A stretch of DNA of 41,381 nucleotides, from positions 1-41,381 of IMG/VR virus record IMGVR_UViG_3300032053_012243. One strand, 5' to 3'. Positions 9,998-37,259 of this stretch are shown here, piece by piece; the first letter of the stretch is position 1, and every line of letters starts with the position of its first letter. A program made the position numbers and the translations under genes. Source of the stretch: a virus. The notes under the pieces are model-generated. The model ran no database searches. It was not told the DNA's origin and saw nothing but the letters and a program-made list of their open reading frames with translations.

Positions 9998-11008
9998 CTA
10001 AAGTAAAGAAGATAATAGGCTCATTATATCATTGGGCGACGAGTATGATACTTGAAATTTTTCAAAATTATATTTATAATTATTAATTATAGCTTCACCA
10101 ACATTAGTGATAGCCTCCGCCCCATTCTGGTCTAAAATAATTCTGGAATCTATTTTAGATGAAACTTTACAGGCGATACGAGCTGGAAAATTTGCCTTAA
10201 TAACACCAGTAATTATATCTACTGAAGGTCTTTGTGTAGCTAAAATGCAATATATACCGGCAGCCCTACATTTTTGTATTAATCTGCATAATAAGATATA
10301 ACCTTCTTTAGAAGGATCTTGCATCGTTAAATCTGCAAATTCATCAATTACTAATACAATTGGTTTAAAACTATCATTATTAATGATATTAATATCAGGA
10401 TTATCTTTGAGAAGAGAATATCTTTGCTCCATTATAGAGAGTAGGTAATGTAATAAGTAATTGTACTCTGTATAAGAATTTATAATATTAACTCGAGAAG
10501 TTAATTTGGCATAAGGCGAAAATTCAATAGCTTTGGTATCAACAATAAAAAGATTTGCATCTGTTGCAAGTAATAAATTACTAATTATAGTGTGCAATAA
10601 ACTGCTTTTACCTGACCCTGTCGATCCTCCTATTAACATATGCGGATTTTTATCCACATCAATAATAACTTTATTGCCTTGATAAGTGTTACCTAAAATA
10701 AGTTGTAATTCTTTTTTATTAGATATTATTGTAGACAAATCTTCTATTAGATTTGAAGCTGGTAATTTTTCTACCACCGTTTCAATTTGAAGTAAGCCAC
10801 TATCTAATTTAAATTTAGTTATAGGAATTGAAAACGACTTTAGCACAAGCATCAGCTCTTTTGAGAGAGCTGAAAATTTGGCTAACCTAAAATTATTTTC
10901 GATTTTAACATCAAAAACATTCATACAACCTTTTTTGGTTACATCAATGCATTTGGCGTGCAATTTATTTGCTGTTAAAAAACTATTGAAGACTTCTATT
11001 TTTTCCAT
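9998..11008 (-). CDS. FtsK/SpoIIIE-like DNA translocase motor
   Basis: This is a RecA-fold DNA pump of the FtsK/SpoIIIE/HerA group. Walker A is GGSTGSGKSS (127-136) and Walker B is IVLVIDEFADL (217-227). The FtsK signature ILATQRPSVDIITGVIKANF follows at 255-274. The 336 residues cover the alpha/beta motor only. There is no membrane domain at the N-terminus, and the sequence stops just after NGAEAITNVGEAII, so the gamma domain that reads KOPS sites is missing. It could act in genome packaging, segregation or conflict with host DNA. The ATG lies 6 nt after a perfect TATAAT, suggesting a leaderless mRNA. Confidence 0.9.
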   Translation of the reverse strand: MEKIEVFNSFLTANKLHAKCIDVTKKGCMNVFDVKIENNFRLAKFSALSKELMLVLKSFSIPITKFKLDSGLLQIETVVEKLPASNLIEDLSTIISNKKELQLILGNTYQGNKVIIDVDKNPHMLIGGSTGSGKSSLLHTIISNLLLATDANLFIVDTKAIEFSPYAKLTSRVNIINSYTEYNYLLHYLLSIMEQRYSLLKDNPDINIINNDSFKPIVLVIDEFADLTMQDPSKEGYILLCRLIQKCRAAGIYCILATQRPSVDIITGVIKANFPARIACKVSSKIDSRIILDQNGAEAITNVGEAIINNYKYNFEKFQVSYSSPNDIMSLLSSLL

Positions 11009-11062: not shown

Positions 11063-11461
11063 TTAAACAGCAAGTAATTTACCAAAAGCCTCTTTAGATA
11101 AACTCATCTTAACATCATCACCAATTTTGAAACCAAATCTGTTATGAATATTAACCGGAAACTCCAATACCAAATCAGAATATTGGTCCTTACCCACTAA
11201 TCGTGTAGAGTATGCTTGTGCCTTAACAATTTCAATAACTTTACCTTTGTAACAAAAAAGAATATCTAAATCATCATTCACATTTTTCATCCAAAATTTA
11301 TTTATTTGTGGCTTCGTATATACGAACGCCATAGATGTTAAAGGCGGTTCAATATGCATTAGACCATTTGTTTGTTCATTTTCATCAATAGCAAGTGAGA
11401 CTACAAACCTATTGCCATTTATAATGACAAAGCCTTTATTCATCAATTTAGTATTATTCAT
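11063..11461 (-). CDS. DUF192 family protein
   Basis: DUF192 proteins are small beta-rich proteins of unknown biochemical role, found in bacteria, archaea and some phages. The signature is present: ENEQTNGLMHIEPP (27-40, usual 'R-x-x-GLM'), MAFVYTKPQINKFWMKNV (44-61, usual 'M-x-F-x-F ... FWMKNT') and LDILFCYKGKVIEIVKA (65-81, usual 'LDIxFI ... G-x-V'). There is no signal peptide, whereas many bacterial members have one, so it acts in the cytoplasm. It starts 1 nt before the stop of the next upstream gene's spacing region and is in line with that operon. Confidence 0.8.
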   Translation of the reverse strand: MNNTKLMNKGFVIINGNRFVVSLAIDENEQTNGLMHIEPPLTSMAFVYTKPQINKFWMKNVNDDLDILFCYKGKVIEIVKAQAYSTRLVGKDQYSDLVLEFPVNIHNRFGFKIGDDVKMSLSKEAFGKLLAV

Positions 11462-11462
11462 T

Positions 11463-12971
11463 TTACCAGCCCGGTTTATCTATATCTTGCTGTATTTGTT
11501 TATTGAAGAAGCGCCCCGCGGGATCTAATATATTTACATTACGTTTATTTGAACCTGGTTCATAATATTTATCCTTATATAGCATATTTAAAAGGTGAAG
11601 TGGTTCATTTATTGTTAATATTAATGTTAATAATTCAGTAATTTTTACATTTAATTCTTCTGAATTAAAATCTTTATTTTCTAAAAGATTCATAATTTTA
11701 TCAACTATAATTTTCATTTCTCGTATAATATTATATACTTCTATACGTGCGGCGGATGACGGATCTTTCCCACGCTTATGTTTGTATTTATTCCATAAGC
11801 GTGACAATAAGTGGCTGGATAATTTAGTTAAATCTAAATTGAGTAGAGATGCATTTTTTTGCAGATTACGAATTTCATCTAATGAAATATTTTCCGGTAA
11901 CTTCTGCTCTATTTCTATTTCTATTTGTTTTTTAAACTTATCAAATAATTCATCAAATTTTTCTTGTAAAATATCTGCAATTATATCTATTTTATTTTTA
12001 TCTTTCTCTAATTTATTTTGATGATAAATAGCTAAAAATCTCTGCATATCATCTTTCGATAACCCTAAACTGCCCATATAAATAACATCATCTTTTAATT
12101 TATGTATTGATGAAGGGGAAGGTGGTGATACTTGAGAGGTTGCGGCAGGCGGAGCGGCAGGCGGAGCGGCAGGCGGAGCGGCAGGCGGAGCGGCAGGCGG
12201 AGCGGCAGGCGGAGCAGAAGGTTTATTAGCTATAGGAGGTTTGTTTGCGTCAGGTGGCGTATCAGAGGAAGTATCAGAGGAGGTGTCAGGCGACTTATCT
12301 GCGGGTATGATGCCAACTTTCGAAGCGTCTAGCCCCTTAAGTTTAAATAATTTAATTACAGAAACTTTTAATGAATTTAAATTATTAGATATGCGGAAAT
12401 AAGAATTTAAAACATCCTTAAATGACCCCATATCTTTAGATAAGATATGATCTTCAAATTCAACTAAATTTTTAAATAAAGTATGACTTAAACTTAATGC
12501 CGATAAGCGTTGTAATTTTTGTTGTTTTGTTTCTTGAGAAAATAAAGAAGGCAATTTTGCCCAATATCTAGTAATTAGATTAGAGCCCTCTACAACTAAC
12601 GCATTATTATCGGGGGAGGCGTGCGTTTGACGTCGGTGAGATGCATATTGCGATTGTTCTTGAACAATTCCATTAGCTTCTGACACTAATGTAGCAAATT
12701 CGGCAGCTAATTCATTGAACTCACCGCTTACCAATCCCAAATAACCGCCAATTTCTGCCGGTAACGGCTCTTTAATGGTAGAGATTGGCAATCCGGCTTT
12801 AGCGTCCCCCCGACCGTTTAAACCACGTTTAAATGATATGAGGGCAGGTTTAAAGGCATTCAATCTTGCAATAAAGGCAGAACAGGCTTTATTCCAAACC
12901 GCCTTGCGTTCACGAAGATGTTCTTGCGCGGGGTCTTCAGAGTGGGATCTTGCAGTAATTATTACAGGCAT
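11463..12971 (-). CDS. large protein with six-copy Ala-Pro repeat linker, unknown function
   Basis: I do not recognise the family. The 502 residues split into two helical halves joined by a flexible linker at about 233-285. The N-terminal half begins MPVIITARSHSEDPAQEH and is helical. The linker starts with Asp/Thr/Pro/Ser repeats (DTSSDTPPD), then has six exact PPAA/APPA-type units encoded by a 12-bp DNA repeat. The C-terminal half is again helical (coiled-coil-like to the end, DIDKPGW). Such linkers usually keep two folded domains apart. It could be a virion or host-takeover protein. Base composition of the repeat differs sharply from the rest of the window. Confidence 0.75.
   Translation of the reverse strand: MPVIITARSHSEDPAQEHLRERKAVWNKACSAFIARLNAFKPALISFKRGLNGRGDAKAGLPISTIKEPLPAEIGGYLGLVSGEFNELAAEFATLVSEANGIVQEQSQYASHRRQTHASPDNNALVVEGSNLITRYWAKLPSLFSQETKQQKLQRLSALSLSHTLFKNLVEFEDHILSKDMGSFKDVLNSYFRISNNLNSLKVSVIKLFKLKGLDASKVGIIPADKSPDTSSDTSSDTPPDANKPPIANKPSAPPAAPPAAPPAAPPAAPPAAPPAATSQVSPPSPSSIHKLKDDVIYMGSLGLSKDDMQRFLAIYHQNKLEKDKNKIDIIADILQEKFDELFDKFKKQIEIEIEQKLPENISLDEIRNLQKNASLLNLDLTKLSSHLLSRLWNKYKHKRGKDPSSAARIEVYNIIREMKIIVDKIMNLLENKDFNSEELNVKITELLTLILTINEPLHLLNMLYKDKYYEPGSNKRNVNILDPAGRFFNKQIQQDIDKPGW
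12142..12213. repeat. six perfect copies of a 12-bp GC-rich tandem repeat
   Basis: Six identical 12-bp units (gcggcaggcgga on the plus strand) lie inside the minus-strand gene and encode the Pro-Pro-Ala-Ala repeat. The units are about 83% GC in a 30% GC genome. Exact copies at the DNA level, including third positions, mean the array expanded or was corrected recently, and copy number is likely to vary. Confidence 0.9.
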
Positions 12972-12995: not shown

Positions 12996-13553
12996 TTATA
13001 AAATTTTATCGATAATACCGTATTTTAAGGCGCCTTTAGCATCTAGATATAAATCTCGTTTGGAATCTTGTGAAATTTTATGAATAGATTGCTGTGTATG
13101 TTTAGCAAGTATCTTTAATATTCTTTTATTAAATGATTCCAAATAGTTATAATAAATTTTGGAATCCACTTGATCAGACATTGGCATTTCTGGAAATGAA
13201 CACTGTAATCCGTGGATCATTACTTCGGCATTTTTAAACATAAATCGTTTACCCTTGGTGCCTGCCGCCAGCAAAAAAACACCCGCCGAGTAGACTTTAC
13301 CTATACCAATAGTCGAAATTGGGGCATCAATTAAACCCATTACATCATAAATACTCGATAATGCTGATGCGTCTCCCCCAGATGTATGAATAAATAAATT
13401 AATATCTTCTGTTGAACTAATTGCATTATAATAAATTAGTAATCCACATATTGATGAGGCGAGCTCTTTGGTTAAATCTTCGGCTAAAAAGATAGTTCTA
13501 TCTTGAGATAGGGAGGTATAAACATCGGCATATTTATTTGATTCTAAATTCAT
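12996..13553 (-). CDS. clpP: ClpP protease subunit (catalytically intact)
   Basis: ClpP forms a barrel of two heptameric rings that degrades proteins fed by an AAA+ unfoldase. The catalytic triad is intact: S89 in GKVYSAGVFLLAAGTKG (usual GQAASMGAFLL), H114 in VMIHG, and D167 in SKRDLYLDA. The oxyanion glycines (TSGG, 57-60) are also present. It has 185 residues and no propeptide. The ATG overlaps the stop of the dead paralogue as TAATG, so both are made together, probably as a mixed ring. No ClpX/ClpA-type unfoldase is seen in the window, so it would need the host's or one elsewhere in the genome. Confidence 0.93.
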   Translation of the reverse strand: MNLESNKYADVYTSLSQDRTIFLAEDLTKELASSICGLLIYYNAISSTEDINLFIHTSGGDASALSSIYDVMGLIDAPISTIGIGKVYSAGVFLLAAGTKGKRFMFKNAEVMIHGLQCSFPEMPMSDQVDSKIYYNYLESFNKRILKILAKHTQQSIHKISQDSKRDLYLDAKGALKYGIIDKIL

Positions 13554-14125
13554 TAGACAACCTTATCGGCTATTCCATATTTTACCGCCTCCGCAGCAGT
13601 CATAAAACATTGACGCTCTGTATCTTTTTTTAACTGCACAAGCGATTTGCCGCTATGATTAGATAATGCTTTTAGAAAAGCTTCATTGTCTCTAATGGTT
13701 TTGGTATGAGAAATTTTAGTATTTGTTAAATCAGAATGACCCATTGATTGAGACATTACCTGTGAAATACAGATGCCGGCATTTTTAGTAATTAATCGAT
13801 ACCCTTTGGTGCCAGCTGCCAATAACAAGACCGCTTCACGCATTACGGCTCCAATGCAAAAAGTTTCAAGCGGCGATGATAATAGCTGCATTCCATCATA
13901 TATAGCAAATACATTGCGTATGTCTCCATCTTCGGCATTAATAAAGATGGTAATTTTATTTTGATTTTCTTTATCTAAAACAAATAAGGCAGCCAATACA
14001 TCGACAGATGCCTTATCTGTTAATAAATCATCTATAAAAATAATTCTATTTTGTAGAAGTCTTGAAAAGACATCTACACGAACCTCTTCAACATTTCCCA
14101 TCTTTTCCAAGATAACAGTATTCAT
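13553..14125 (-). CDS. catalytically dead ClpP paralogue (ClpR-like)
   Basis: The protein aligns with its neighbour over the whole ClpP fold: IGAVMREAVLLLAAGTKGYR (91-110) matches the active-site strand, and AAEAVKYGIADKVV the usual end. All three catalytic residues are changed: Ser to Arg (R96), His to Ser (S121, in ICISQ) and Asp to Gln (Q172, in TERQCF). The SGG oxyanion motif is EDG (65-67). The fold residues, including LLLAAGTKG, are kept. This is the situation of ClpR subunits in cyanobacteria and plastids, which mix with active ClpP. The TAATG overlaps with both neighbours argue for stoichiometric expression. The heteromer itself is inference. Confidence 0.88.
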   Translation of the reverse strand: MNTVILEKMGNVEEVRVDVFSRLLQNRIIFIDDLLTDKASVDVLAALFVLDKENQNKITIFINAEDGDIRNVFAIYDGMQLLSSPLETFCIGAVMREAVLLLAAGTKGYRLITKNAGICISQVMSQSMGHSDLTNTKISHTKTIRDNEAFLKALSNHSGKSLVQLKKDTERQCFMTAAEAVKYGIADKVV

Positions 14126-14484
14126 TATCGCCTTTTGTGTTGTTTCTTTTCAGCCTCTAATTGTTCAGCGCAACTAATGCAAATTGCAAATGTTGGATTA
14201 ATAAGTAATCTTTTTTCAGCAATTAATTCCCCACATTCTTCACAGTGACCATAGGTATTTTCTTCGATTTTTTTAAGCGCTATATCTATATTTTTTAATT
14301 TTATCTTATCTCTTAAAGATAATTGAGCCTGTATGTTAGCGAGAATTTTTCCTTGAATTTCATCAACCTCGTCACCTGATATATCTATATCAATGGGTAT
14401 TAATTCTTTTGAAGAAATTAATTCCTTTTCTTCGAGAAGAATTTTTTTAATTTTTATTATAAATTTTTTCACTTCAATCTCCAC
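14125..14484 (-). CDS. DksA/TraR-type C4 zinc-finger protein
   Basis: The C-terminal half has the DksA/TraR C4 finger: CEECGELI (C-x2-C) and, 17 residues on, CISC, framed by the family's 'YGxCxxCGExIxxxRL' and 'P-x-x-xxCxxC' pattern. The first 75 residues form helices, as in the DksA coiled-coil that reaches into the RNA polymerase secondary channel. At 119 residues it is between TraR (73) and DksA (151). Phage members can mimic DksA-ppGpp to reset host transcription. It leads the ClpR/ClpP pair and overlaps the dead ClpP start by TAATG. Confidence 0.88.
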   Translation of the reverse strand: MEIEVKKFIIKIKKILLEEKELISSKELIPIDIDISGDEVDEIQGKILANIQAQLSLRDKIKLKNIDIALKKIEENTYGHCEECGELIAEKRLLINPTFAICISCAEQLEAEKKQHKRR

Positions 14485-14813
14485 TATAAAAATGTTTTAA
14501 TTAAATCCATATTTTGGATTATTTTGTTACGCAATGATTTAGATAATTTTATTTTTAATAAAATTTTACCTTCTGAAATAGCAAATCTTTGTTTTTGTAA
14601 ATTATGAAACTTACGCGGTTTACTCATTTCTAATTTAAAATGACAAAAATTAGGAATATTGATATTTTCTTTTTGCTGTAAATTAAGCAAAAATTCATCA
14701 ACAAATATCGAAATCACATTAGCTATGTGTATGTGATGAATATTATGTTTCAATCTTTTAGTGACTAAAAAAGTCAGCTTACGTTTATTGAGGGTTATGG
14801 ATGGTTTCTTCAT
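14484..14813 (-). CDS. HU/IHF-like DNA-binding protein (divergent), copy 1
   Basis: This 109-residue basic protein follows the HU/IHF plan: a helical N-terminal half (IHIANVISIFVDEFLLNLQQ), the turn motif INIPNFCHFKLEM (51-63) where HU has 'V-x-L-x-G-F-G-x-F', the start of the DNA-bending arm at SKPRKFHNLQKQ (64-75) where HU has 'RKGRNPxTG', and KLSKSLRNKI (89-98) where HU has 'FKPGKALK'. The glycines of the turn are replaced, so it is distant. It probably coats or bends phage DNA. It overlaps the upstream gene by 29 bp and its stop overlaps the next start. Confidence 0.65.
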   Translation of the reverse strand: MKKPSITLNKRKLTFLVTKRLKHNIHHIHIANVISIFVDEFLLNLQQKENINIPNFCHFKLEMSKPRKFHNLQKQRFAISEGKILLKIKLSKSLRNKIIQNMDLIKTFL

Positions 14814-19827: not shown

Positions 19828-20307
19828 TTATAATTTTTTAATGTAGTTTGGAACAATATTTAATTTTAAATATTTTTCTTTATCTTTATCAGATAGGTTA
19901 GGAAATCCGCTAATGCTTTTTCTGCAATTCCATTGCTCACATTTGCACGCCATTGACCATTCTTCAAGATTTTCAGTAGAAGTAATTGAATAATCGAAAC
20001 ATAATTCTTCATTGGGCGCAATAGGGCGTGTAGAAATTAAAAAAACCGTTTGTGAAATAATTTTAACTTGTGTATTAGGATTACAGCTATGATTAATAAA
20101 GAAAGATATATCTTTATTTAAATTTAAATACATATTAGAACCTATTTGTAAAAATAGTTCAGATACCGTATCTGGTAATTCATATGTTGTTTTTTTATCA
20201 AATATTTTGCCTCTAAAAGTTAATAGAACTTGGTTGGCAGCAAAATGCACCAGAGAGTATAGCCCCTGTCCTTTATTAACCGTATTGCGAATTTCAAATG
20301 AAGTCAT
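19828..20307 (-). CDS. SET-domain lysine methyltransferase-like protein
   Basis: A compact stand-alone SET domain (159 aa). It has KGQGLYSLVHFAANQVLLTF (12-31, the 'G-x-G-L-x-A' strand), the AdoMet motif FINHSCNPNTQ (70-80), LCFDYS (102-107) with the catalytic Tyr, and a post-SET zinc cluster CKCEQWNC (121-128). These are all the elements of an active protein-lysine methyltransferase. Most known SET proteins are eukaryotic, but they occur in bacteria (for example Chlamydia) and some viruses. The target is unknown; candidates are the phage's own HU-like proteins or host proteins. It follows the Thg1-like gene in the same direction. Confidence 0.88.
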   Translation of the reverse strand: MTSFEIRNTVNKGQGLYSLVHFAANQVLLTFRGKIFDKKTTYELPDTVSELFLQIGSNMYLNLNKDISFFINHSCNPNTQVKIISQTVFLISTRPIAPNEELCFDYSITSTENLEEWSMACKCEQWNCRKSISGFPNLSDKDKEKYLKLNIVPNYIKKL

Positions 20308-20338: not shown

Positions 20339-21112
20339 TTATATATCACGTTTTTTTAAGATATTAGCTAAAAATATTTGGTCCTTATTAAAAAAAGGCA
20401 AGGCGTCATTTATAGTTAATTTATATTTTATTTCTTCGCCAAAATCAGTTTTCATAAGTTTTGGAGCCCTATAACACGCAACACCTCTCCAAAAGGCCAG
20501 GGGAAAACTTTGCAAATCTACATCACATTCCTTCATTAATAAGTCATACTTTTCAGTTATAGTAAGATTTTTAGTAATTTTTAATACCTTTTCAGCATTA
20601 TATATTTTTAATAATTCATAAAAACAAGCCATAGAAATTGCAATATGTGAAGCCTGATGCTGTTTGGCGATTAAATAATTAATAGCCTCTGTAAGAGAAG
20701 GAACGATAAATGCTTTACTTAAAAATACGGGCTCACCTAACAGTTTGATATTTTTATTCTGCGCTGCGGTGAAAAAAGCAATACTGGCTATGGAAGCGCT
20801 GGCAGAAATAATCTTTTGTATATTATTATCATACCAAGGCTCACTATCTAAAGTCTGATCGTTTCTACAAATAATATTGATTTCATCATTAAATGAATAT
20901 AAGAATACAGCTCCTTCAATTTCAGAAGCCAAACGTATAAGAGTCTGTCCCATTATTTCTATAAAATCTTCAGAATAGGGTTTATGCAAGATAGAGGTGG
21001 TTTTACGAAACCCCCTACCATTTAAACTTATAATAATAGGTAATTTGCGTGTTAATTTAAAATCACTTACACTTTCGTAGGTAAGTATGCGGTCTTTAAG
21101 CGTATCAATCAT
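20339..21112 (-). CDS. Thg1-like tRNA 3'-5' polymerase family protein
   Basis: Thg1 adds a G to the 5' end of tRNA-His, and the Thg1-like proteins repair truncated tRNA 5' ends by 3'-5' polymerisation. The family pattern is visible: LPIIISLNGRGFRKTT (24-39; usual 'xxRxDGRxF'), HKPYSEDFIEIMGQT (43-57; 'KPxD...M') and FLYSFNDEINIICR (70-83; usual 'YxxSDExS'). The first metal-binding Asp is replaced by Asn (N31), whereas D76 and E77 remain. The protein is otherwise the expected length (257). If active it may restore host or phage tRNAs cut by defence nucleases; if not, it could be a binding protein. Confidence 0.82.
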   Translation of the reverse strand: MIDTLKDRILTYESVSDFKLTRKLPIIISLNGRGFRKTTSILHKPYSEDFIEIMGQTLIRLASEIEGAVFLYSFNDEINIICRNDQTLDSEPWYDNNIQKIISASASIASIAFFTAAQNKNIKLLGEPVFLSKAFIVPSLTEAINYLIAKQHQASHIAISMACFYELLKIYNAEKVLKITKNLTITEKYDLLMKECDVDLQSFPLAFWRGVACYRAPKLMKTDFGEEIKYKLTINDALPFFNKDQIFLANILKKRDI

Positions 21113-27851: not shown

Positions 27852-28557
27852 AGATTTGAAAATTAAAATATTTGCTGATGGGGCTAATATATTAGATATT
27901 ACTAAATTATCTCAAGATGTAAATATTAAAGGTTTTACTTGTAATCCAACTTTAATGAAACAAAGTGGAGTAGTAGATTACAAAAAATTCGCCCAAGATG
28001 TTTTGAATGTAATTGGTGATAAGCCAATTTCATTTGAAGTGTTCGCTGATGATTTTCCAAATATGGAACGACAAGCTATGGAAATTGCAAGTTGGGACAA
28101 AAATTCCAACGTGTATGTAAAAATACCGATTACTAATACGGTAGGCGAAAGTTCTTGCGATTTAGTTCATAAATTATCACACGCCGGCGTTAAAGTCAAT
28201 GTGACAGCGGTATTTACTTTATCCCAAGTATTACAATCTACGCAGGCATTAGCTGGTGGGGCACCAAGCGTTTGCAGCGTTTTTGCTGGACGAATTTTTG
28301 ATGCCGGAGTGGATGCCATTCCAATAATGAAAGGCGCATCGGAAATTTGCAAAATGCACGAAGGTATCGAGCTATTATGGGCGAGTCCGAGACAGATTTT
28401 CGATGTTGTCCAAGCTAATGAAATGTGCGATATCATAACGGTAGGATATGACATATTGAAGAAGTATAGTTCCCTGGGTAAAAGTTTAACAGAATTTAGT
28501 TTAGATACGGTAAAGATGTTCGAGAGAGACGCGAAAGCAAGCGGGTATCAATTATGA
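27844..28557 (+). CDS. transaldolase (TalC/fructose-6-phosphate aldolase-like)
   Basis: Class I transaldolase/FSA of the TalC type. It has FTCNPTLMKQ (31-40), the Schiff-base Lys K93 in YVKIPIT, VFAGRIFDAG (usual 'FVGRIxD') and WASPRQIFD (usual 'ASxR'). At 237 residues it is close to cyanophage TalC. Placed inside a heptose locus it probably supplies sedoheptulose-7-phosphate from fructose-6-phosphate and erythrose-4-phosphate, the substrate of GmhA in the next gene, with which it overlaps by 4 bp. An alternative is general pentose-pathway rerouting as proposed for cyanophages. Confidence 0.9.
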   Translation: MIKDLKIKIFADGANILDITKLSQDVNIKGFTCNPTLMKQSGVVDYKKFAQDVLNVIGDKPISFEVFADDFPNMERQAMEIASWDKNSNVYVKIPITNTVGESSCDLVHKLSHAGVKVNVTAVFTLSQVLQSTQALAGGAPSVCSVFAGRIFDAGVDAIPIMKGASEICKMHEGIELLWASPRQIFDVVQANEMCDIITVGYDILKKYSSLGKSLTEFSLDTVKMFERDAKASGYQL

Positions 28558-29156
28558 CATTATCATTTTCGCACGAATACATAATGGAATCGATGACAAT
28601 ATTATCTCAACTTGATCGCGATGCTATTGAAAAATTAGCAACTGGATTGGCGCAAGTTAGATCGCAACAGGGAAGATTATTCGTATTAGGTATGGGTGGC
28701 AGTGCAGGAACAGCGAGTCATTCTTGCAATGATTTTCGCAAAATATGTAATATCGAAACATATTGTCCAACAGATAATTCATCCGAATTAACCGCACGCG
28801 CGAACGATGAAGGACTAGAAACGATTTTTTCAGCCTATTTGCAAGGTTCTCGCCTTACTGATAAGGACGCAATATTAGTTCTTTCGGTCGGTGGCGGAAA
28901 TGCTGATAAGAATATTTCGGTTAGTCTTATCAAAGCGGTAGATTATGCCAAATCAGTCAATGCAAAAGTTCTTGGTATTATTGGGCGAGACGGTGGTTAT
29001 GTAGCTAAAAATACTGACGCTTGTTTGATAATTCCAACATTAGTAGATGATAGGATCACGCCTCACGTCGAGGGATTATGTTCGGTAATTCTTCATTTAT
29101 TGGTTAGTCATCCAGCGCTTAAAGTTACTGCCACCAAGTGGGAAAGCACTAAATAA
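28554..29156 (+). CDS. gmhA: GmhA-like sedoheptulose-7-phosphate isomerase (SIS domain)
   Basis: GmhA converts sedoheptulose-7-phosphate to D-glycero-D-manno-heptose-7-phosphate. The SIS domain has LGMGGSAGTASHSCNDFRKI (45-64), the loop that binds the phosphate (usual 'GNGGSAxxAxHxAxEL'), and SVGGGNADKN (108-117) at the sugar site. The acidic residue at the usual E65 position is Asp in this loop, as in other SIS-type proteins of heptose loci. It is one of four enzymes that complete the GDP-heptose pathway. It overlaps transaldolase by 4 bp and the next gene by 1 bp. Confidence 0.87.
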   Translation: MTLSFSHEYIMESMTILSQLDRDAIEKLATGLAQVRSQQGRLFVLGMGGSAGTASHSCNDFRKICNIETYCPTDNSSELTARANDEGLETIFSAYLQGSRLTDKDAILVLSVGGGNADKNISVSLIKAVDYAKSVNAKVLGIIGRDGGYVAKNTDACLIIPTLVDDRITPHVEGLCSVILHLLVSHPALKVTATKWESTK

Positions 29157-30127
29157 TGAAACATAATAAATGGTTTATTGTGGGTGGAGCAGGCGGGATT
29201 GGCTCTCACTTCATTGATAAACTGCTATCCGATCCATCAACAACAAAGCTAACAATTTACGATAATTTTTCTTCCGGAAGGGAATGGCACTACGAAAATC
29301 ATATTCGCGATTTAAGGTTTGAAGTAATTAGAGGTAATGTAGAAGATACCGTAAAACTTACAGAAGCAATGCGACATCACGATGTGGTAATCCATTTGGC
29401 TTCCAATCCTGATATAGCAAAAGCTGCCACACAACCAGATATAGATTTTTGGCAAGGCACCGTATTAACTAATAGTGTTCTTGAAGCTATGAGAATATCA
29501 GGTGTTAATAGATTATTATATGCAAGCGGTAGTGGCGTATATGGAGATATTGGTGAAGAAGAGGCACAAGAAGATCGTGGAAAGTTATTACCTATTTCAA
29601 CATATGGAGCTAGTAAATTAGCAGGAGAAGTATTAATAAATTCTTATTGTTATATGTTTGGACTATCGGCTTGCGCATTTAGATTTGGTAATGTTGCCGC
29701 CAATCGCGCGACCCACGGAGTTTATTTAGATTTTATCAGACAATTAATTAATAATCCATCAGAATTATTTATTTTGGGTAACGGACTTCAATCCAAATCA
29801 TATGTTGCAGCTTCTGATATAATTAGTGCCGTCTTATTAGCTAATAAAAAATTAGATAAATCATTTGAAATATACAATGTTGCTACAAAAAATTATTTAA
29901 CAGTAAATGAAATTGCTGATATGGCAGTAGAATGCTTACACTTGAAAGGTGTAAAATATAAATACAGTGGCGGGGACAGGGGTTGGAAAGCAGATATACC
30001 CATAGTAAGAATGAGTTCAGATAAAATTCGCTCATTGGGATGGAATAATTTATTATCTTCAAAAGAAGCAATTAAATTATCAATAATAAATATTATTAAT
30101 AATATTAAAAATAGCAAAATAAAATGA
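29156..30127 (+). CDS. NAD-dependent epimerase/dehydratase (extended SDR), copy 1
   Basis: An extended SDR that acts on nucleotide sugars. It has WFIVGGAGGIGSHFIDKL (6-23) at the NAD-binding site and the catalytic YGASK (150-154), with substrate-loop sequence ACAFRFGNVAANRATHG. It is in the UDP-glucose 4-epimerase / GDP-mannose 4,6-dehydratase superfamily, but the substrate is not decided by sequence; in this context a GDP-heptose is likely. The middle (EEAQEDRGKLLPIS) is typical of epimerases. It overlaps GmhA by 1 bp and the GIY-YIG gene by 4 bp. Confidence 0.86.
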   Translation: MKHNKWFIVGGAGGIGSHFIDKLLSDPSTTKLTIYDNFSSGREWHYENHIRDLRFEVIRGNVEDTVKLTEAMRHHDVVIHLASNPDIAKAATQPDIDFWQGTVLTNSVLEAMRISGVNRLLYASGSGVYGDIGEEEAQEDRGKLLPISTYGASKLAGEVLINSYCYMFGLSACAFRFGNVAANRATHGVYLDFIRQLINNPSELFILGNGLQSKSYVAASDIISAVLLANKKLDKSFEIYNVATKNYLTVNEIADMAVECLHLKGVKYKYSGGDRGWKADIPIVRMSSDKIRSLGWNNLLSSKEAIKLSIINIINNIKNSKIK

Positions 30128-30831
30128 TAAATGCTATATATAAAATAACAAACATTATAAATAATAAATGTTATATAGGTCAAACTTGGAAATCATTAAA
30201 TATAAGATTTAATCAACATATTAAAGCAAATAATAATAGATATTTAACTAATGCCATAAACAAATATGGTAAAGAAAATTTCAAAATAGAATTACTTACA
30301 ATTACACACTCTCAACAATGTGCGGATTTTTGGGAAAAATATTTTATTACATTATATAATAGTATGGATACGAAAATAGGGTATAATTTAAAACAAGGCG
30401 GATCACAAGGTAAATTATCAAAAGAAGTTAAAGAAAAAATATCCAAATCTCATATTGGTATGACATATTCAGAACAAACAAAAATAAAATTATCAGAAAT
30501 AAATACAGGAGAATTAAATTCGTTTTACGGAAAACATCATACAGATGAAGCCAAACAAAAAATTGCAGATGCTAGAAAAGGACATACTCCTTGGAATAAA
30601 GGTAAAACTGGAATATATTCTGAAGAAACATTAAAAACTATGTCCTTATCTCACCGAGGGCAGCAAACTTGGTTAGGTAAATCTCATACCGAAATATCTA
30701 AAATTAAAATGTCAGAAGCACATAAAGGACAACAAAATTGGTTGGGCAAAACTCATACAGAAGAAAGTAAGCGCAAAATATCAGAAGCTCAAAAAAAACG
30801 ATTTTTAGATAAAAAGAAAGAACAATTATGA
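30124..30831 (+). CDS. GIY-YIG homing endonuclease with NUMOD3 repeats
   Basis: A free-standing homing endonuclease. The GIY-YIG module is AIYKITNIINNKCYIGQTWK (4-23), then a Lys-rich helix with NRYLTNAINKYGKENF. From about residue 95 there are repeated NUMOD3-type units (SKEVKEKISKSHIG, YSEQTKIKLSE, TDEAKQKIADARKG, SEETLKTMSLSHRG) that bind DNA. The gene is inserted between an epimerase and HddA with ATGA overlaps on both sides, so expression of the operon is not interrupted. AT content is higher than its neighbours and Asn/Lys-rich, consistent with separate origin. Confidence 0.93.
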   Translation: MINAIYKITNIINNKCYIGQTWKSLNIRFNQHIKANNNRYLTNAINKYGKENFKIELLTITHSQQCADFWEKYFITLYNSMDTKIGYNLKQGGSQGKLSKEVKEKISKSHIGMTYSEQTKIKLSEINTGELNSFYGKHHTDEAKQKIADARKGHTPWNKGKTGIYSEETLKTMSLSHRGQQTWLGKSHTEISKIKMSEAHKGQQNWLGKTHTEESKRKISEAQKKRFLDKKKEQL

Positions 30832-31802
30832 TTATAACGAGAAGTCCATTAAGAATTTCATTAGGTGGTGGAGGTACTGATTTACCTTCTTATTATGAAC
30901 AATATGATGGATTTTGTATTTCGGCAGCCATCGATCAATATGTATATATTGCATTACATAATACTACTGTCAATGAAATTGTTCTACGATATTCTCAAAT
31001 AGAAAAAGTTCAAAATATAAAGGATATTCGCCATCCAATAATTAAAGCAGCTTTACAATTAAATAATATTATAAATACAAATATCGAACTTACCAGTATG
31101 GCAAATTTGCCGGCGGGCACCGGACTTGGATCATCAGGAAGTTTTACAACCGCTTTATTAAAAGCTTTATTTAGATTTAAAAATAAATCTATTTCTCAAC
31201 ATCAATTAGCCGAAATGGCGTGTCATATAGAAATAGATATATTAAAAGAACCAATAGGCAAACAAGATCAATTTATTGCAGCATATGGAGGATTAACTTC
31301 TTTTGAATTTAAAAAAGATGGACAAGTTATTGCGAAGCCAATAAATATTAGTAATGAAACTATTGGGCGATTAGAAGAAAATCTAATAATGATACCAGCC
31401 GGAGTATCTCGTTCAGCATCAGAAGTTCTTAAAGAGCAAAATGATAAAAGTAAAGCTGCCGATCCAGATATGATTAATAATCTTCATTATGTCAAAGAAA
31501 TGGGATATAGAAGTTTAGAACTATTAGAAAGCGGAAACCTTGTTCAGTTTGGTATATTAATGCACGAACACTGGGAACATAAAAAGAAACGCTCTACTAA
31601 AATGAGTAATCCGTATATCGATCAAATATATCAATTATGTTTGGAAAATGGAGCAGTCGGAGGAAAACTAATTGGTGCTGGAGCTTCTGGTTTTCTTTTG
31701 TTCTATACAGAAGATAAAAAACAATTATTATCTACATTAAAGGGTGCCGGATTACACGATATCAAAATTAAATTTGATTATGAAGGAACTAAAATCTTAT
31801 GA
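30828..31802 (+). CDS. hddA: HddA-like D-glycero-D-manno-heptose-7-phosphate kinase (GHMP family)
   Basis: A GHMP kinase giving heptose-1,7-bisphosphate. It has the N-terminal RSPLRISLGGGGTDLPSYYE (5-24), typical of HddA, and the ATP-binding LPAGTGLGSSGSFTTAL (94-110). The C-terminus has GGKLIGAGASGFLLFY, the usual GHMP motif 3. At 324 residues it has normal length. It is coupled by ATGA to the inserted endonuclease gene, and the next gene starts 4 bp before its stop. Its presence defines the alpha-branch (GDP-heptose) rather than the beta-branch (ADP-heptose). Confidence 0.9.
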   Translation: MIITRSPLRISLGGGGTDLPSYYEQYDGFCISAAIDQYVYIALHNTTVNEIVLRYSQIEKVQNIKDIRHPIIKAALQLNNIINTNIELTSMANLPAGTGLGSSGSFTTALLKALFRFKNKSISQHQLAEMACHIEIDILKEPIGKQDQFIAAYGGLTSFEFKKDGQVIAKPINISNETIGRLEENLIMIPAGVSRSASEVLKEQNDKSKAADPDMINNLHYVKEMGYRSLELLESGNLVQFGILMHEHWEHKKKRSTKMSNPYIDQIYQLCLENGAVGGKLIGAGASGFLLFYTEDKKQLLSTLKGAGLHDIKIKFDYEGTKIL

Positions 31803-32758
31803 AAAAAATAGCCATTACAGGGTGTGCAGGATTTATAGGATCGTGGATTTGCGATAAAGCTTTAGCTGCCGACTATGAAGTTATTGGAATAGATAACCTT
31901 ACCAGTGGTGTAAATTTTACGCCAGCCAAAGTGGACTTTCATAAAGTAGATATAAATGATAATATCAAAGATTTATTATCAAACGTTGATGCCGTAATAC
32001 ATACGGCAGCATACGCTGAATTGCGTCATAATTGGGAAAGTAAGACAGAAAGAGATCGTTTATTTCTTAATAATGAAATAGGAACTCGAAGCGTTTTAGA
32101 ACAAATGCCATCGGTTCCTATTATATTTTTATCAACAGCGGCGGTTTATGGATCCCGTTCTAATAGCGCTGATGCAAAGAAATTTAATTATGCATTAATA
32201 GAATCGGATGCCGATCCTAGTGCTGTAGAATCTCCGTATGCTGCTTCTAAATTGGCTTGCGAAGCATACCTTGCTGCTTGGTCATTTAAAAGAAAAACTC
32301 CTTGGTATGCGTTGAGATTAGTTAATCAGATTGGTGCAAGAACACATCGTGGAGTTATAGTTGATTTTTTGCGTATGATAAAAGAAAAACAACATATTCA
32401 CGCAGCAGATAATGGCGCCCAAACCAAAAATTGGGTTAATGTAGAAGATACAGCAAATGTAATTTTACGATTATTAGATAATGAACATCCGGTGCCATCT
32501 GGCATTTATACAGTTACATCTGAAGAAAGATGGAGTTGGCGAGATATAGTTACTATTATGACTAAAATGTATGATGAAAAATATCAAAATAGAACAGAAC
32601 CATTTGGCTTAACTTATGAAGAAAGGTTAGCCGGTTCGGTTGGAGATCCTATTAATCTTTATGTAAGTGGAGATAAACTTAAACCATATTATCATTGTAA
32701 TAAATCTGTAGAACAAGCTGTAAGGGATGCATTAACATTTTTGGGTTGGGCACAATGA
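31799..32758 (+). CDS. NAD-dependent epimerase/dehydratase (extended SDR), copy 2
   Basis: A second extended SDR, distinct from the copy 2.6 kb upstream. It has KKIAITGCAGFIGSWICDK (2-20) and the catalytic YAASK (147-151), with ALRLVNQIGARTHRGVIVDF as the substrate loop. Sequence identity with the first copy is limited, so they are not a recent duplication. Together with the dehydrogenase-like gene it may carry out a 4-keto reduction or epimerisation on the activated heptose. Substrate is inferred from context only. Confidence 0.86.
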   Translation: MKKIAITGCAGFIGSWICDKALAADYEVIGIDNLTSGVNFTPAKVDFHKVDINDNIKDLLSNVDAVIHTAAYAELRHNWESKTERDRLFLNNEIGTRSVLEQMPSVPIIFLSTAAVYGSRSNSADAKKFNYALIESDADPSAVESPYAASKLACEAYLAAWSFKRKTPWYALRLVNQIGARTHRGVIVDFLRMIKEKQHIHAADNGAQTKNWVNVEDTANVILRLLDNEHPVPSGIYTVTSEERWSWRDIVTIMTKMYDEKYQNRTEPFGLTYEERLAGSVGDPINLYVSGDKLKPYYHCNKSVEQAVRDALTFLGWAQ

Positions 32759-34029
32759 AAATTTGTGTTCAAGGATTATGGCATCTTGGAACGGTTACCG
32801 CAGCCTGTTTAGCTTCTATTGGACACGATGTAGTTGGTTTAGATTATGATGAGAAAATTATTACCTCTTTAAATAATGGCAAGCCAACTATTTTTGAACC
32901 AGGCTTAGAAGAATTATTAAAAAATGGACTAAAATCTAACAAATTAACATTTGCATCAGAAGTTAAAGATATTGAATTTTTATGGATTACTTATGATACT
33001 CCAGTTGATGACGACGATAATGCAGATGTAGATTTTGTAGTTGAACAAATTTTAAAAACAATACCATTTTTAAAAAAAGACGCAACCGTATTAGTTTCAT
33101 CTCAAATGCCAATAGGTTCTATTAAAAAATTAGAAAATATTGTAAAAGAACAATATATAGAAAAAAATATTAATTTCGCTTGCTCTCCAGAAAATCTAAG
33201 ACTGGGTAATGCTTTAAATGTATTTTTAAAACCAGATCGTATTATAGTTGGAGTTCGTTCAAATATAACTAAAGAAATTATTCAAAATATATTAGAACCA
33301 CTCGCGGCTAAAATAGAATGGATGTCAGTAGAGTCCGCCGAAATGACAAAACACGCCATTAATTCATTTTTAGCTACATCTGTGGTATTTGCAAATGAAA
33401 TAGCAACGATTTGTGAAATGACTGGTGCCGACGCAAAAGAAGTGGAACGAGGATTAAAATCTGAACAAAGAATTGGTTATAAAGCTTATTTATCGCCTGG
33501 AGTAGCTTTCTCTGGCGGCACATTAGCTCGTGATATAGAGTTTTTAAAAAATGTTAGCAATACATATAATATTAATATTCCTCTTTTACAATCAGTAAAA
33601 ACAAGTAATGATATACATAAATCTTGGATGCAAAGAAAGATACAGCAAATATTTCCAGCATTACAAGGTGTAACTATAGCTATATGGGGCATTACATATA
33701 AATCAGGAACTGACACATTAAGGCGCTCAATGCCCGTAGAATTATGTAATTGGTTAATTTCTCAAGGAGCAATTATCCATATATATGATCCTGTTGTTAA
33801 GTTATTGCCAGAAATATGGAAGGGGGTAGTGCAAAGATTTGAAAATCCATTAGCATCTCTCAATCAAGCTGATATATTATTGCTTGGTACTGAATGCAAA
33901 GAGTACAAGGAAATTTTTTCAAATTACGAATTCACTAAACCATTAACTATTATTGATCCTAATAGATTTCTATTAAATATAGATAAAACAAACATTAATT
34001 ATATTTCTATAGGCGCCCCGCTTATTTAA
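32755..34029 (+). CDS. UDP-glucose/GDP-mannose dehydrogenase-family protein lacking the catalytic Cys
   Basis: Nucleotide-sugar dehydrogenases oxidise C6 in two steps through a Cys thiohemiacetal. This one has the full fold: KICVQGLWHLGTVTAACLA (NAD site), FLWITYDTPVDD, ACSPENLRLG and the structural TKHAINSFLA. In the active-site loop, however, the usual GGSCFPKD is SGGTLARD (about 253-260), so the nucleophile Cys is Thr. It is therefore unlikely to make a uronic acid in the normal way and may do a single oxidation or act as an epimerase. The ATG at 32755 overlaps the previous stop (ATGA); a TTG 9 nt earlier is less likely. Confidence 0.85.
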   Translation: MKICVQGLWHLGTVTAACLASIGHDVVGLDYDEKIITSLNNGKPTIFEPGLEELLKNGLKSNKLTFASEVKDIEFLWITYDTPVDDDDNADVDFVVEQILKTIPFLKKDATVLVSSQMPIGSIKKLENIVKEQYIEKNINFACSPENLRLGNALNVFLKPDRIIVGVRSNITKEIIQNILEPLAAKIEWMSVESAEMTKHAINSFLATSVVFANEIATICEMTGADAKEVERGLKSEQRIGYKAYLSPGVAFSGGTLARDIEFLKNVSNTYNINIPLLQSVKTSNDIHKSWMQRKIQQIFPALQGVTIAIWGITYKSGTDTLRRSMPVELCNWLISQGAIIHIYDPVVKLLPEIWKGVVQRFENPLASLNQADILLLGTECKEYKEIFSNYEFTKPLTIIDPNRFLLNIDKTNINYISIGAPLI

Positions 34030-34039
34030 GTTAACAACT

Positions 34040-34771
34040 ATGACAACTGCACCATTTATAACAATTTATACAATTACATATAACGAAGAGGCGTTAATGA
34101 AATTTATGATTGATCATTATAGAAGTAGATTTCCCGGATGTCATATAGTTGTATATGACAATAATTCTACCGATCGAACTCCAGAAATATGTTCCAATAA
34201 TGGATGTGAAATTAGGCATTATAACGCCAATAATCAGTTAGATGATGGGTTACATATGCGTATTAAAAATACATGTTGGAAAGATGCTAATACTGATTGG
34301 GTATTAATGTGCGATTTAGATGAATTATTAGAAATTAATGAAGAACAGCTAAAACAAGAAGAAGCTGCAGGAGTTACAAGAATTAAATCAGAAGCTTGGA
34401 CTTTAGTAAATATGGTGGATGATGTTTCGCACGAAGCTCTTGCAAAAATAGATGGCGGCTTTAGAGATCCGGGATATGATAAATATTTATTGTTTAATAA
34501 AAAACATATTAAAGAAATTAATTATAATCCAGGAGCCCACGGATGTAGCCCTGTAGGACACATAGTTGATAGTAAAATATATTATTTATATCATTATCAA
34601 TATATACACGCTGATATTTTTGTAGCTAAAAGGATGGAAACTGCTAAAAGATTAAGCATTGCTAATAAAAAAAATGGATGGGGTGTTCCTCAGGTTTCTG
34701 GAACTGAACAAGATAAGAGAAATGATTTTCAATATAGAAGAGATCATATCATTAAGGCGCCGGGAAAATAA
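34040..34771 (+). CDS. GT2-like glycosyltransferase (DUF-type, Asp-Leu-Asp)
   Basis: A family-2-like glycosyltransferase: FITIYTITYNEEALMKFMID (6-25), DNNSTDRT and the metal/nucleotide-binding VLMCDLDELLEI (about 89-100). The 243 residues cover the GT-A domain only. It is a close paralogue of the N-terminal half of the next gene: both share IDHYRSRFP-x-CHIVVYDN-x-ST and DIFVAK. It ends (HIIKAPGK) just where its paralogue continues into a methyltransferase domain, so it looks like the same module with that domain cut off. It is probably cytoplasmic, using the nucleotide-heptose made nearby. Confidence 0.85.
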   Translation: MTTAPFITIYTITYNEEALMKFMIDHYRSRFPGCHIVVYDNNSTDRTPEICSNNGCEIRHYNANNQLDDGLHMRIKNTCWKDANTDWVLMCDLDELLEINEEQLKQEEAAGVTRIKSEAWTLVNMVDDVSHEALAKIDGGFRDPGYDKYLLFNKKHIKEINYNPGAHGCSPVGHIVDSKIYYLYHYQYIHADIFVAKRMETAKRLSIANKKNGWGVPQVSGTEQDKRNDFQYRRDHIIKAPGK

Positions 34772-36085
34772 ATGAAAATTACTATTCACACAGTAACTTA
34801 TAATGAAGAATTATTAATGCAACTAATGATCGATCATTATCGAAGTAGATTTCCAGATTGTCACATAGTTGTATATGATAATCAATCTACTGATAATACC
34901 GTAGCCATTGCTAAAGCTAATAATTGTGAAATTAGACATTATGATTCTGGTGGTCAAGTTAATGATCAAATGTTGTGGGAAACTAAAAATAACTGCTGGA
35001 AAAACGCCCAAACAGATTGGGTGCTTGTGTGTGATTTAGATGAAATGTTAGATATTACTGAGGCGCAACTCATAGCAGAAGACGCACAAGGCGTAACTAA
35101 AATTAAATCAGAATGTTATCATATGGTGAATATGGAAGATAACTTAAATGTATATAATATAAAGTATGGTTTAAGAGATCCTAGAGATACCGTATATGAT
35201 AAAGATTTATTATTTAATAAAAGATATGTCGATATTAACTATATAAATAATGATTGTCATTTTACTAATTCAATAGCTAAAGGTAAAGCTATAAAAAATA
35301 GTAAACCATATAAGATGTTACATTATAAGTATGTAAATTCTGATATTTTTGTTGCCAAACAACAAACAAGCGCTAAAAGATTAAGCCATATTAATAAAAT
35401 TAATGGGTGGGGATCGCAATGTTTGCGAGATGAGGGTAGTTTTCGAGCCGAATTTCAATCAGTAAGAGATAGAGCTATTAAAGTTATAATGGATGGTGAT
35501 ATGAAACATTTTTATCAAAATATTCAAGGGTGGTTTAGTTTTTCAAACCTTTATACCGAGATGGTTAATACAATATCAGACGGCGGACATATTGTTGAAG
35601 TGGGAGCCTGGAAAGGGCGTTCAACGGCATACTTGGCTGTAGAAATAATTAACTCCGGTAAAAAAATTAAATTAGATGTAGTAGATATTTGGACCGGAAC
35701 TGAAGACTTTTTAACATCAGATGCTTTTACCACTGATGCTGAATTTATGCAATATAATAAAAATATTTATGAATTATTCAAAAAAAATATAGCTCCAGTA
35801 TTACATATGGTTAATCCAATCCAATTACCATCAGTAAAGGCAGCCGGATTATATCCTAATAAAAGTATAGATTTTATCTTAATAGACGCCAGTCACGAAT
35901 ATGAAGATGTAAAAAAAGATATTTTAGCTTGGTTACCAAAATTAAAAGATAATGGAGTAATTGCTGGAGACGATTATAATCCTACATCTTTCCCGGGAGT
36001 TGTTAAAGCGGTTCACGAATTATTTACAAATGAACAAATTACATTTAAAGATAGTTGTTGGGTAATAAGAAAGAAAGAAAAATAA
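34772..36085 (+). CDS. GT2-like glycosyltransferase fused to a class I methyltransferase
   Basis: A two-domain protein of 437 residues. Residues 1-238 are the GT2 domain (TIHTVTYNEELLMQLMID, then VLVCDLDEMLDI). Residues 244-437 are a methyltransferase_24/FkbM-like domain with MKHFYQNIQGWFSFSNL and the AdoMet loop HIVEVGAWKGRSTAYLAV (273-290), then FILIDASHEYEDVKKDI. Its N-half is paralogous to the gene before it and its C-half to the gene after it. The fusion suggests a sugar is transferred and then methylated in one complex. It starts directly at the previous stop. The acceptor is unknown. Confidence 0.87.
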   Translation: MKITIHTVTYNEELLMQLMIDHYRSRFPDCHIVVYDNQSTDNTVAIAKANNCEIRHYDSGGQVNDQMLWETKNNCWKNAQTDWVLVCDLDEMLDITEAQLIAEDAQGVTKIKSECYHMVNMEDNLNVYNIKYGLRDPRDTVYDKDLLFNKRYVDINYINNDCHFTNSIAKGKAIKNSKPYKMLHYKYVNSDIFVAKQQTSAKRLSHINKINGWGSQCLRDEGSFRAEFQSVRDRAIKVIMDGDMKHFYQNIQGWFSFSNLYTEMVNTISDGGHIVEVGAWKGRSTAYLAVEIINSGKKIKLDVVDIWTGTEDFLTSDAFTTDAEFMQYNKNIYELFKKNIAPVLHMVNPIQLPSVKAAGLYPNKSIDFILIDASHEYEDVKKDILAWLPKLKDNGVIAGDDYNPTSFPGVVKAVHELFTNEQITFKDSCWVIRKKEK

Positions 36086-36089
36086 ATAA

Positions 36090-36674
36090 ATGGAACATTT
36101 TTATAAAAATATTTATGGTTGGTTTAATTATGAAGAATTATATTTGGATATAATTAATAAATTACCAACTAATTCTCACATTGTAGAAATTGGAGCATTT
36201 AAGGGAAAATCAACGGCATTTTTAGTTGTTGAAATTATTAAATCAGGCAAACATATTAAACTTGATGTAATTGATTCTTGGAATGGTCAAAATGAAACTA
36301 AAGAGCCGTGGGCGGATTATATAGCGGAGCCTACTAAAAATCAGATAAAGCCAGTTGGTGATATTTTTGAAGAATTCAAAAATAATTTATTACCAGTTTG
36401 GGGAAAATTTAAACCGATACAATCTTTATCTGCCACGGCAGCAATGCTTTATGAAGATAAAACTTTAGATTTTATTTTTATTGATGGAGACCATCAATAT
36501 GAAGGTATTAAAAAAGATTTAATTGCGTGGCGTCCAAAAATGAAAGATGGAGCTATTATGGCTGGCGATGATTATAATCCATCCTGGGGTGTTATTCAGG
36601 CTGTTGATGAATTTTTCGGTAAAAAAAATGTGCAACTATCAGGCGCAGGATCACAATGGTTGGTTAAATTATGA
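36090..36674 (+). CDS. class I methyltransferase (methyltransferase_24/FkbM-like)
   Basis: A stand-alone copy of the methyltransferase domain that forms the C-half of the previous gene. It starts MEHFYKNIYGWFNYEELYLD and has HIVEIGAFKGKSTAFLVV (28-45), LDFIFIDGDHQYEGIKKDL and GAIMAGDDYNP, the same order as in the fusion. It begins at exactly the residue where the fused protein has an internal Met, so it could arise by splitting or by duplicating a fused gene. It overlaps the next gene by 4 bp and lies 4 bp after the fused gene. Substrate unknown; a sugar methyl ether is plausible. Confidence 0.83.
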   Translation: MEHFYKNIYGWFNYEELYLDIINKLPTNSHIVEIGAFKGKSTAFLVVEIIKSGKHIKLDVIDSWNGQNETKEPWADYIAEPTKNQIKPVGDIFEEFKNNLLPVWGKFKPIQSLSATAAMLYEDKTLDFIFIDGDHQYEGIKKDLIAWRPKMKDGAIMAGDDYNPSWGVIQAVDEFFGKKNVQLSGAGSQWLVKL

Positions 36675-37258
36675 GTAATATAGCATCTACCGGATACTGG
36701 GATGGTAATAATCCAGAACACGCAATGTCTGAACCTTTATCTAATTGGATAATAGAATATCTCAAAGATCAAAAATCCAATCCAATTTATGATTTTGGTT
36801 GTGGCAAAGGGATGTATCTTGCAAAGTTAAGTAAAGCAGGATTTACATCGCTATGTGGCTTCGAAGGCGATCCTCCAAAAAATAAAGTATTTGAGAATAT
36901 TTTAAAACAAGATTTAACAACACCGTTTGTTATTCCAATTCGTGGCAACATAATCTCATTAGAGGTGGCTGAACATATACCATCACATTTAACTGATATT
37001 TATTTAACTAATATTTATAATGCCTGTATGAAAGACGGTATATTTATTTCATCGTGGGCCGTTAGGGGTCAAGGTGGACACGGTCATTGTAATGAATTAA
37101 ATAATGACGAAGCTTTAAAATTAATAATCGCTAAAGGTTTTAAATTTTTAAGTCAAGATACAGAGGCTGCCAGAAAAAATATTTCAATTCACCAAGATAT
37201 CCCAAATGGACATTTGCCGTGGTTTAAGGGCACGACTTTAATATTTAAGAAAGTATAA
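36671..37258 (+). CDS. class I SAM-dependent methyltransferase
   Basis: A compact 195-residue Rossmann methyltransferase: PIYDFGCGKGMYLAKLSKAG (38-57) for motif I, then ISLEVAEHIPSH (motif post-II/IV, EVAEHI) and CMKDGIFISSWA (motif VI region). The sequence is not related to the two FkbM-like domains next to it. N-terminal SNIASTGYWDGNNPEHAMSE is typical of sugar or small-molecule methyltransferases rather than DNA enzymes. It is coupled to the previous gene by an ATGA overlap and lies 1 bp before the SDR. Acceptor unknown. Confidence 0.82.
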   Translation: MSNIASTGYWDGNNPEHAMSEPLSNWIIEYLKDQKSNPIYDFGCGKGMYLAKLSKAGFTSLCGFEGDPPKNKVFENILKQDLTTPFVIPIRGNIISLEVAEHIPSHLTDIYLTNIYNACMKDGIFISSWAVRGQGGHGHCNELNNDEALKLIIAKGFKFLSQDTEAARKNISIHQDIPNGHLPWFKGTTLIFKKV

Positions 37259-37259
37259 T

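Follow-up and report, generated by a model that had tools for sequence, protein, structure and literature searches.

A conserved pair of adjacent catalytically dead and active ClpP genes in huge phages, probably encoding two subunits of a viral ClpP core

Why should a virus encode, side by side, a ClpP protease subunit that has kept its catalytic residues and a second one that has lost them? This question is raised by a 41,381-base fragment recorded from an uncultivated virus (IMGVR_UViG_3300032053_012243; "the window" refers to this whole fragment), in which the gene for a dead ClpP-like subunit of 190 amino acids (aa) (13553-14125, minus strand) is followed by that for a predicted active ClpP subunit of 185 aa (12996-13553, minus strand). 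A preliminary description of the window had proposed that these genes, together with an upstream DksA-like gene on the same transcript, specify a two-subunit Clp core made in fixed ratio, and the coordinates, reading frames and TAATG overlaps that it gave for the back-to-back pair were all confirmed. We conclude that the products of the two genes probably form a hetero-oligomeric ClpP core of the virus's own, in which the dead one would be a non-catalytic gate or scaffold subunit.

Both proteins matched the Pfam CLP_protease model (cut-off 20.2 bits) over their full length, the active copy with 161 bits (3.7e-47) and the dead copy with 139 bits (1.6e-40). When the proteins were aligned with E. 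coli ClpP and other solved ClpPs, R96, S121 and Q172 of the dead copy, and S89, H114 and D167 of the active copy, coincided with the catalytic Ser, His and Asp residues, at exactly the positions named in the preliminary description. In the 33 distinct family members identified (see below), no dead copy has a catalytic Ser, His or Asp; the serine site is occupied by Asp or Asn in 26/33, the histidine site by a residue other than His in 33/33 (mostly Ser, Gly or Thr), and the aspartate site by Arg or Lys in 25/33. The active copies have kept both Ser and His in 33/33, with 24 displaying Ser-His-Asp and 9 Ser-His-Glu, and 65/67 other resolvable ClpP-like sequences, which served as a control, also have both Ser and His. 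The loss of the SGG loop, which had been noted for the dead copy, applies to the window but not to the family, as both glycines are kept in 32/33 members.

The dead subunit combines a ClpP fold with the absence of the triad, as ClpR does, according to its AlphaFold2 model and the mapping of the triad. Mycobacterial ClpP1 and ClpP2 are both catalytic, and the pair differs from this ClpP1P2 type in that the dead subunit has no triad. With 131.5 bits against the clpP equivalog model TIGR00493 (cut-off 308.6), the active subunit is evidently a divergent ClpP and not a clpP equivalog. None of the NCBIfam ClpP-type models reached its cut-off with the dead copy; NF009204, which is presumably the cyanobacterial ClpR model, scored 96 (cut-off 263), and general ClpP models scored higher. 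Among viral structure records, the one nearest to the dead copy, with 43% identity, is labelled simply 'ClpP protease subunit', and its inactivity may therefore be masked in annotation.

Two profile searches over 2.9 million viral contigs, one seeded by the dead family and the other by the active family, detected the adjacent order DksA - dead ClpP - active ClpP on 39 further viral contigs, many of them 200-481 kb in length, and the gene order for which a search of huge phages had been suggested is therefore present there. Together with the window these represent 40 loci, with 33 distinct pairs once identical sequences were removed. Although they were recruited by separate searches, dead and active copies were never apart in the 40 loci, and a dead copy located far from its active partner, named beforehand as an observation that would speak against the pairing, was not seen. 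The viral source is supported by the contig sizes of up to 481 kb, and by terminase and portal genes in the relative examined. The spacing between the dead and active genes in relatives ranged from -38 to +63 nt (mostly -4 to +13), and the TAATG overlap of the pair, while present in the window, is not a conserved trait, as the 1-base overlap varies among relatives.

Across 84,980 bacterial and archaeal species genomes, the dead profile retrieved five generic ClpP-like proteins only and did not find the dead family, and a bacterial origin of this family was rejected on this basis. One of the five is encoded on a contig from a Clostridia metagenome-assembled genome (JAFSBD010000133.1, L181:1998-2561), by a gene with Gly, Thr and Lys at the catalytic positions that is located beside ComEC/metallo-hydrolase-like genes; the 8.5 kb examined contain no active ClpP, and this is a solitary, independent loss of the triad in a bacterium. 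Single-protein scans of the viral contigs with either ClpP gave no match, as the exact 8-mers used were probably too strict, and a degenerate DNA pattern, built for the R-E motif where the serine was lost, matched only twice and by chance, in tape-measure-like genes. No ClpP is seen on two contigs recognised by their topoisomerase (L026 and L027), which carries no information, since both stop just short of the expected position of the pair.

In a phylogenetic tree, constructed without cyanobacterial or plastid ClpR sequences, the dead copies formed one clade (support 100/99) and the active copies another (96/100), with one change each and with roughly parallel subtrees, and a weakly supported sister relation between the two clades (88/50). 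Because the dead copies are monophyletic and the subtrees parallel, the triad would most simply have been lost once, before the phage group diversified. Mean pairwise identity was 55.5% for the dead and 53.7% for the active copies, and the distances within the two families were correlated (r = 0.85), as expected under co-inheritance. In close pairs, the dead gene displayed nonsynonymous divergence (dN) of 0.06-0.14 versus synonymous divergence (dS) of 1.2-2.8 (dN/dS roughly 0.04-0.11), and dN of the active gene in close relatives was as low, which points to strong purifying selection on both genes. Judged by its sequences, the pair is a conserved system and not a decaying copy.

The AlphaFold2 models of both subunits are canonical ClpP folds (predicted local distance difference test score of 91.5 for the dead and 89.4 for the active model), and their top structural matches were tied (Z about 28), including M. 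tuberculosis ClpP2 for the dead model and ClpP1 for the active model. The models differ at the axial hairpin, which is present in the dead model (strands 4-9 and 12-18) and absent from the active model. Consistent with this, the alignment of the dead copies with mature E. coli ClpP begins at its N-terminus, whereas the N-termini of the active copies are variable and unrelated, with the axial hairpin lost in 33/33. In ClpXP, the N-terminal hairpins of ClpP form the axial collar (PMC7112951), and the natural reading of the models would be that cutting falls to the active subunits, whereas the dead ones provide the gate and the face for docking. In the mechanism that we propose, the active subunit would cut, while the dead subunit would supply the axial gate or docking collar as well as ring contacts, in a role akin to that of cyanobacterial, plastid and apicoplast ClpR, or of the ATPase-facing ClpP2 ring of mycobacteria. 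The two would form a single mixed barrel, with the dead ring most likely stacked on the active ring, into which a host AAA+ unfoldase (ClpX, ClpA or ClpC) may feed substrates through the dead face, and this barrel may alter protein turnover during huge-phage infection of the host. Between stacked homo-rings and rings of mixed composition, we think the former would be most likely, by analogy with known two-subunit systems: apicoplast ClpP and ClpR are separate homo-heptamers that are thought to stack (PMC7966870), and in M. tuberculosis ClpP1P2 the ATPases dock on the ClpP2 ring only (PMC4416901).

The two proteins may alternatively have independent functions, with an ordinary viral ClpP next to a dead paralogue that was exapted as a non-proteolytic chaperone, adaptor or structural ring and does not assemble with it, and an adjacency that simply follows from the surrounding gene block. 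The near-invariant residues that are new to the dead copies (R70, E97 and Q122, window numbering) would fit a new role, and the block from HU to TopA is syntenic as a whole across the compared loci. However, pairing is obligate even in loci without the neighbouring genes p125, p155 or DUF192, and the dead and active copies complement each other in having kept and lost the N-terminal hairpin, respectively, which makes independent functions decidedly unlikely.

Several findings weigh against a hetero-oligomeric core that works as proposed. Conservation of the whole block weakens the argument from adjacency, and 9/33 active copies have Glu in place of the catalytic Asp. The handle loop of the active copies has an invariant HGxQ...F(P) where the canonical sequence is HQPxGGxxGQ; that of the window is Pro-containing (HGLQCSFPEMPMSD), and being so far from the canonical GGxQGQ, the loop leaves peptidase activity of the active subunit on its own not assured. 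None of the active copies and only 2/33 dead copies have Arg192, which is needed for docking of E. coli ClpX (PMC7112951). Leu114 is replaced by Thr in all dead copies. Position 192 of ClpP varies among bacteria, so that the absence of Arg192 counts only against docking of the E. coli type. In addition, no ClpB_D2-small unfoldase was detected in 23 of the 24 large relatives (of which the contigs may be incomplete), and the only such protein found is ClpB-like, with no obvious IGF-type loop by eye; ATP-dependent use of the core would thus depend on a host partner. Matches to AAA_2 in most relatives were considered as possible Clp unfoldases of the phages themselves, and rejected as MoxR-like ATPases of about 370 aa.

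As nearly all relatives are without a detectable unfoldase of their own, interplay with the host Clp system is to be expected, and this would also suit a scenario in which the phage subunits enter or replace the host ClpP barrel, with the dead one acting as a dominant-negative subunit that shuts down or redirects host ClpXP or ClpAP. The dead subunit has indeed kept the axial hairpin and core contacts of ClpP. A poison subunit does not need the active partner with which the dead copy is obligately co-inherited in 40/40 loci, though, and both dead and active copies share no more than about 30-40% identity with bacterial ClpPs of solved structure, and we therefore regard such poisoning of the host barrel as unlikely.

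Dead ClpP subunits that partner active ones are found in photosynthetic bacteria and the organelles descended from them. The ClpP/ClpR-like pairing put forward in the preliminary description gained support from the co-occurrence in 40/40 loci, the two monophyletic clades, the purifying selection and the complementary structural specialisations, with assembly itself putative, and the dead/active pair most probably works like ClpP/ClpR. As with ClpR of cyanobacteria, plastids and apicoplasts, a ClpP fold without the triad is partnered, here putatively, with an active ClpP, but the huge-phage pair is viral, its genes are adjacent with no ClpC gene detected alongside, and the phage dead copies form a clade of their own in the tree. 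With the ClpP1P2 hetero-tetradecamers of mycobacteria and Listeria it would share two paralogous subunits with divided labour, but one phage subunit is dead in every member.

The presence of ClpP in jumbo phages was already known, and an earlier suggestion was that it is deployed against the host (PMC7824862). Examples are Serratia phage BF, Lak, RaK2-like phages and Bacillus phage G, but those records that were searched in full contain a single ClpP proper, and none has an adjacent dead partner. Two phages of 636-642 kb (LR756504.1 and LR756502.1) each encode two intact ClpPs located 53-79 kb apart, without an adjacent dead partner, as well as a third S14 protein of the head-maturation type. 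No phage pairing of a dead with an active ClpP was reported in the literature searched, which covered few subscription papers, and Clp goes unmentioned in the text of the main paper on huge phages. If the proposed core is correct, a ClpP/ClpR-type architecture, shared by all members identified in a widespread huge-phage group, would have evolved outside the cellular lineages, and it may offer a minimal two-gene system for understanding why a Clp barrel retains a dead subunit. The wider proposal is that a ClpR-type pseudoprotease arose independently in huge phages, giving an asymmetric barrel with its gate on the dead ring and lost from the active ring, either fed by a host unfoldase or unfoldase-free, as a core component of a clade of phages of roughly 0.2-0.5 Mb; for this we consider the chances to be evenly balanced.

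S14 ClpP-like proteases act in head maturation in other phages, and the pair may accordingly be asked to serve as the prohead protease of these phages. There were weak matches to PHROG head-maturation families, a third S14 match was found in only 1/24 relatives, and neither an S77 nor an S78 protease was found in 12 genomes (the S77 search being without a positive control), all of which would leave room for such a role. On the other hand, a 1226-aa open reading frame (ORF) of one relative (contig G009), located near the portal and terminase genes and about 59 kb from the pair, has a protease domain of the head-maturation type (phrog_18299, 1.2e-11), the neighbours of the pair encode HU, DksA, FtsK-like and topoisomerase proteins and no structural proteins, and both the dead (31.5 bits) and active copies (43.0 bits) remain under the 120-bit cut-off of NCBIfam NF045542, making this role highly improbable. 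The domain in the 1226-aa ORF (L187:6827-10507) is at residues 106-215, and the ORF is probably a fusion.

The two subunits of the putative core may not be made in equal amounts. In the 33 dead copies, with start sites inferred by alignment, the start codon is TTG in 28 (as in L130:8001-8003 and L120:8001-8003), GTG in 2 and ATG in 3, including the window, while the mapped starts of the neighbouring families, DksA and active ClpP included, are almost all ATG. Conservation of this weak TTG start at the dead subunit suggests tuned stoichiometry, which may set the subunit ratio in most relatives, and it speaks against a simple 1:1 form of the fixed ratio first envisaged and for unequal or tuned synthesis.

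The DksA/TraR-like gene (14125-14484, minus strand, GTG start, 119 aa) is located directly upstream of the dead ClpP gene in 40/40 loci. Its product matched PF01258 with 43.3 bits (cut-off 24.9; 3.6e-11) and phrog_54 (3.9e-11), has the C4 zinc finger of DksA/TraR and contains the sequence GDEVDEIQ; the family has conserved both the GDExDeiQ acidic motif of the coiled-coil tip and the CxxC...CxxC cysteines. Phage members of the DksA/TraR family reprogram host RNA polymerase (PMC9239242). TraR and lambda Orf73 are likewise small zinc-finger proteins of the DksA fold, encoded by mobile elements and modulating RNA polymerase (PMC9239242), a role that is putative here, but the huge-phage protein, with about 118 aa, is longer, and its gene invariably precedes the ClpP pair. 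The stop/start junctions linking the DksA-like, dead ClpP and active ClpP genes are GTCTAATGA and GATAATGAA, with TAATG at both, and a further overlap, TAGTG, joins the DksA-like gene to the HU-like gene upstream of it. Stop/start overlaps are frequent all over the densely packed window, so that the DksA overlap alone carries little information, and since the HU-to-TopA block is conserved whole, synteny is no independent evidence of a functional tie. The proposed coupling of the DksA-like gene was thus borne out for the overlap and the constant synteny, but not by any independent functional link, and a functional tie of its product to the ClpPs is put forward here as a hypothesis.

The pair lies in a tight run of minus-strand genes, in which that for an HU/IHF-like DNA-binding protein (14484-14813; PF00216, 1.9e-08), an upstream neighbour conserved in relatives as part of the block, is followed by the DksA-like and the two ClpP genes. 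Next is the gene for a 502-aa protein with a Pro/Ala-rich centre (11463-12971, minus strand), which matched no Pfam family; it is conserved and adjoins the pair downstream of active ClpP in nearly all relatives, and its product is a possible partner or substrate. Domain searches and synteny assigned the following genes, encoding a DUF192 protein (11063-11461, minus strand) and an FtsK/SpoIIIE-like ATPase (9998-11008, minus strand), to the conserved block. In the closest relative, an HNH-endonuclease-like ORF (L026:929-1627) is located between the homologue of the 502-aa gene and the DUF192 gene. Promoter and terminator scans gave background levels only. Elsewhere in the window, we noted genes for a SET-domain protein (19828-20307), here in a phage genome, and for a homologue of the tRNA-His guanylyltransferase Thg1 (20339-21112), with relatives of Thg1 in just three of the compared loci. 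A plus-strand run (28554-40032) includes nucleotide-sugar, glycosyltransferase and methyltransferase genes, and is broken at 30124-30831 by a gene resembling those for GIY-YIG/NUMOD3 homing endonucleases.
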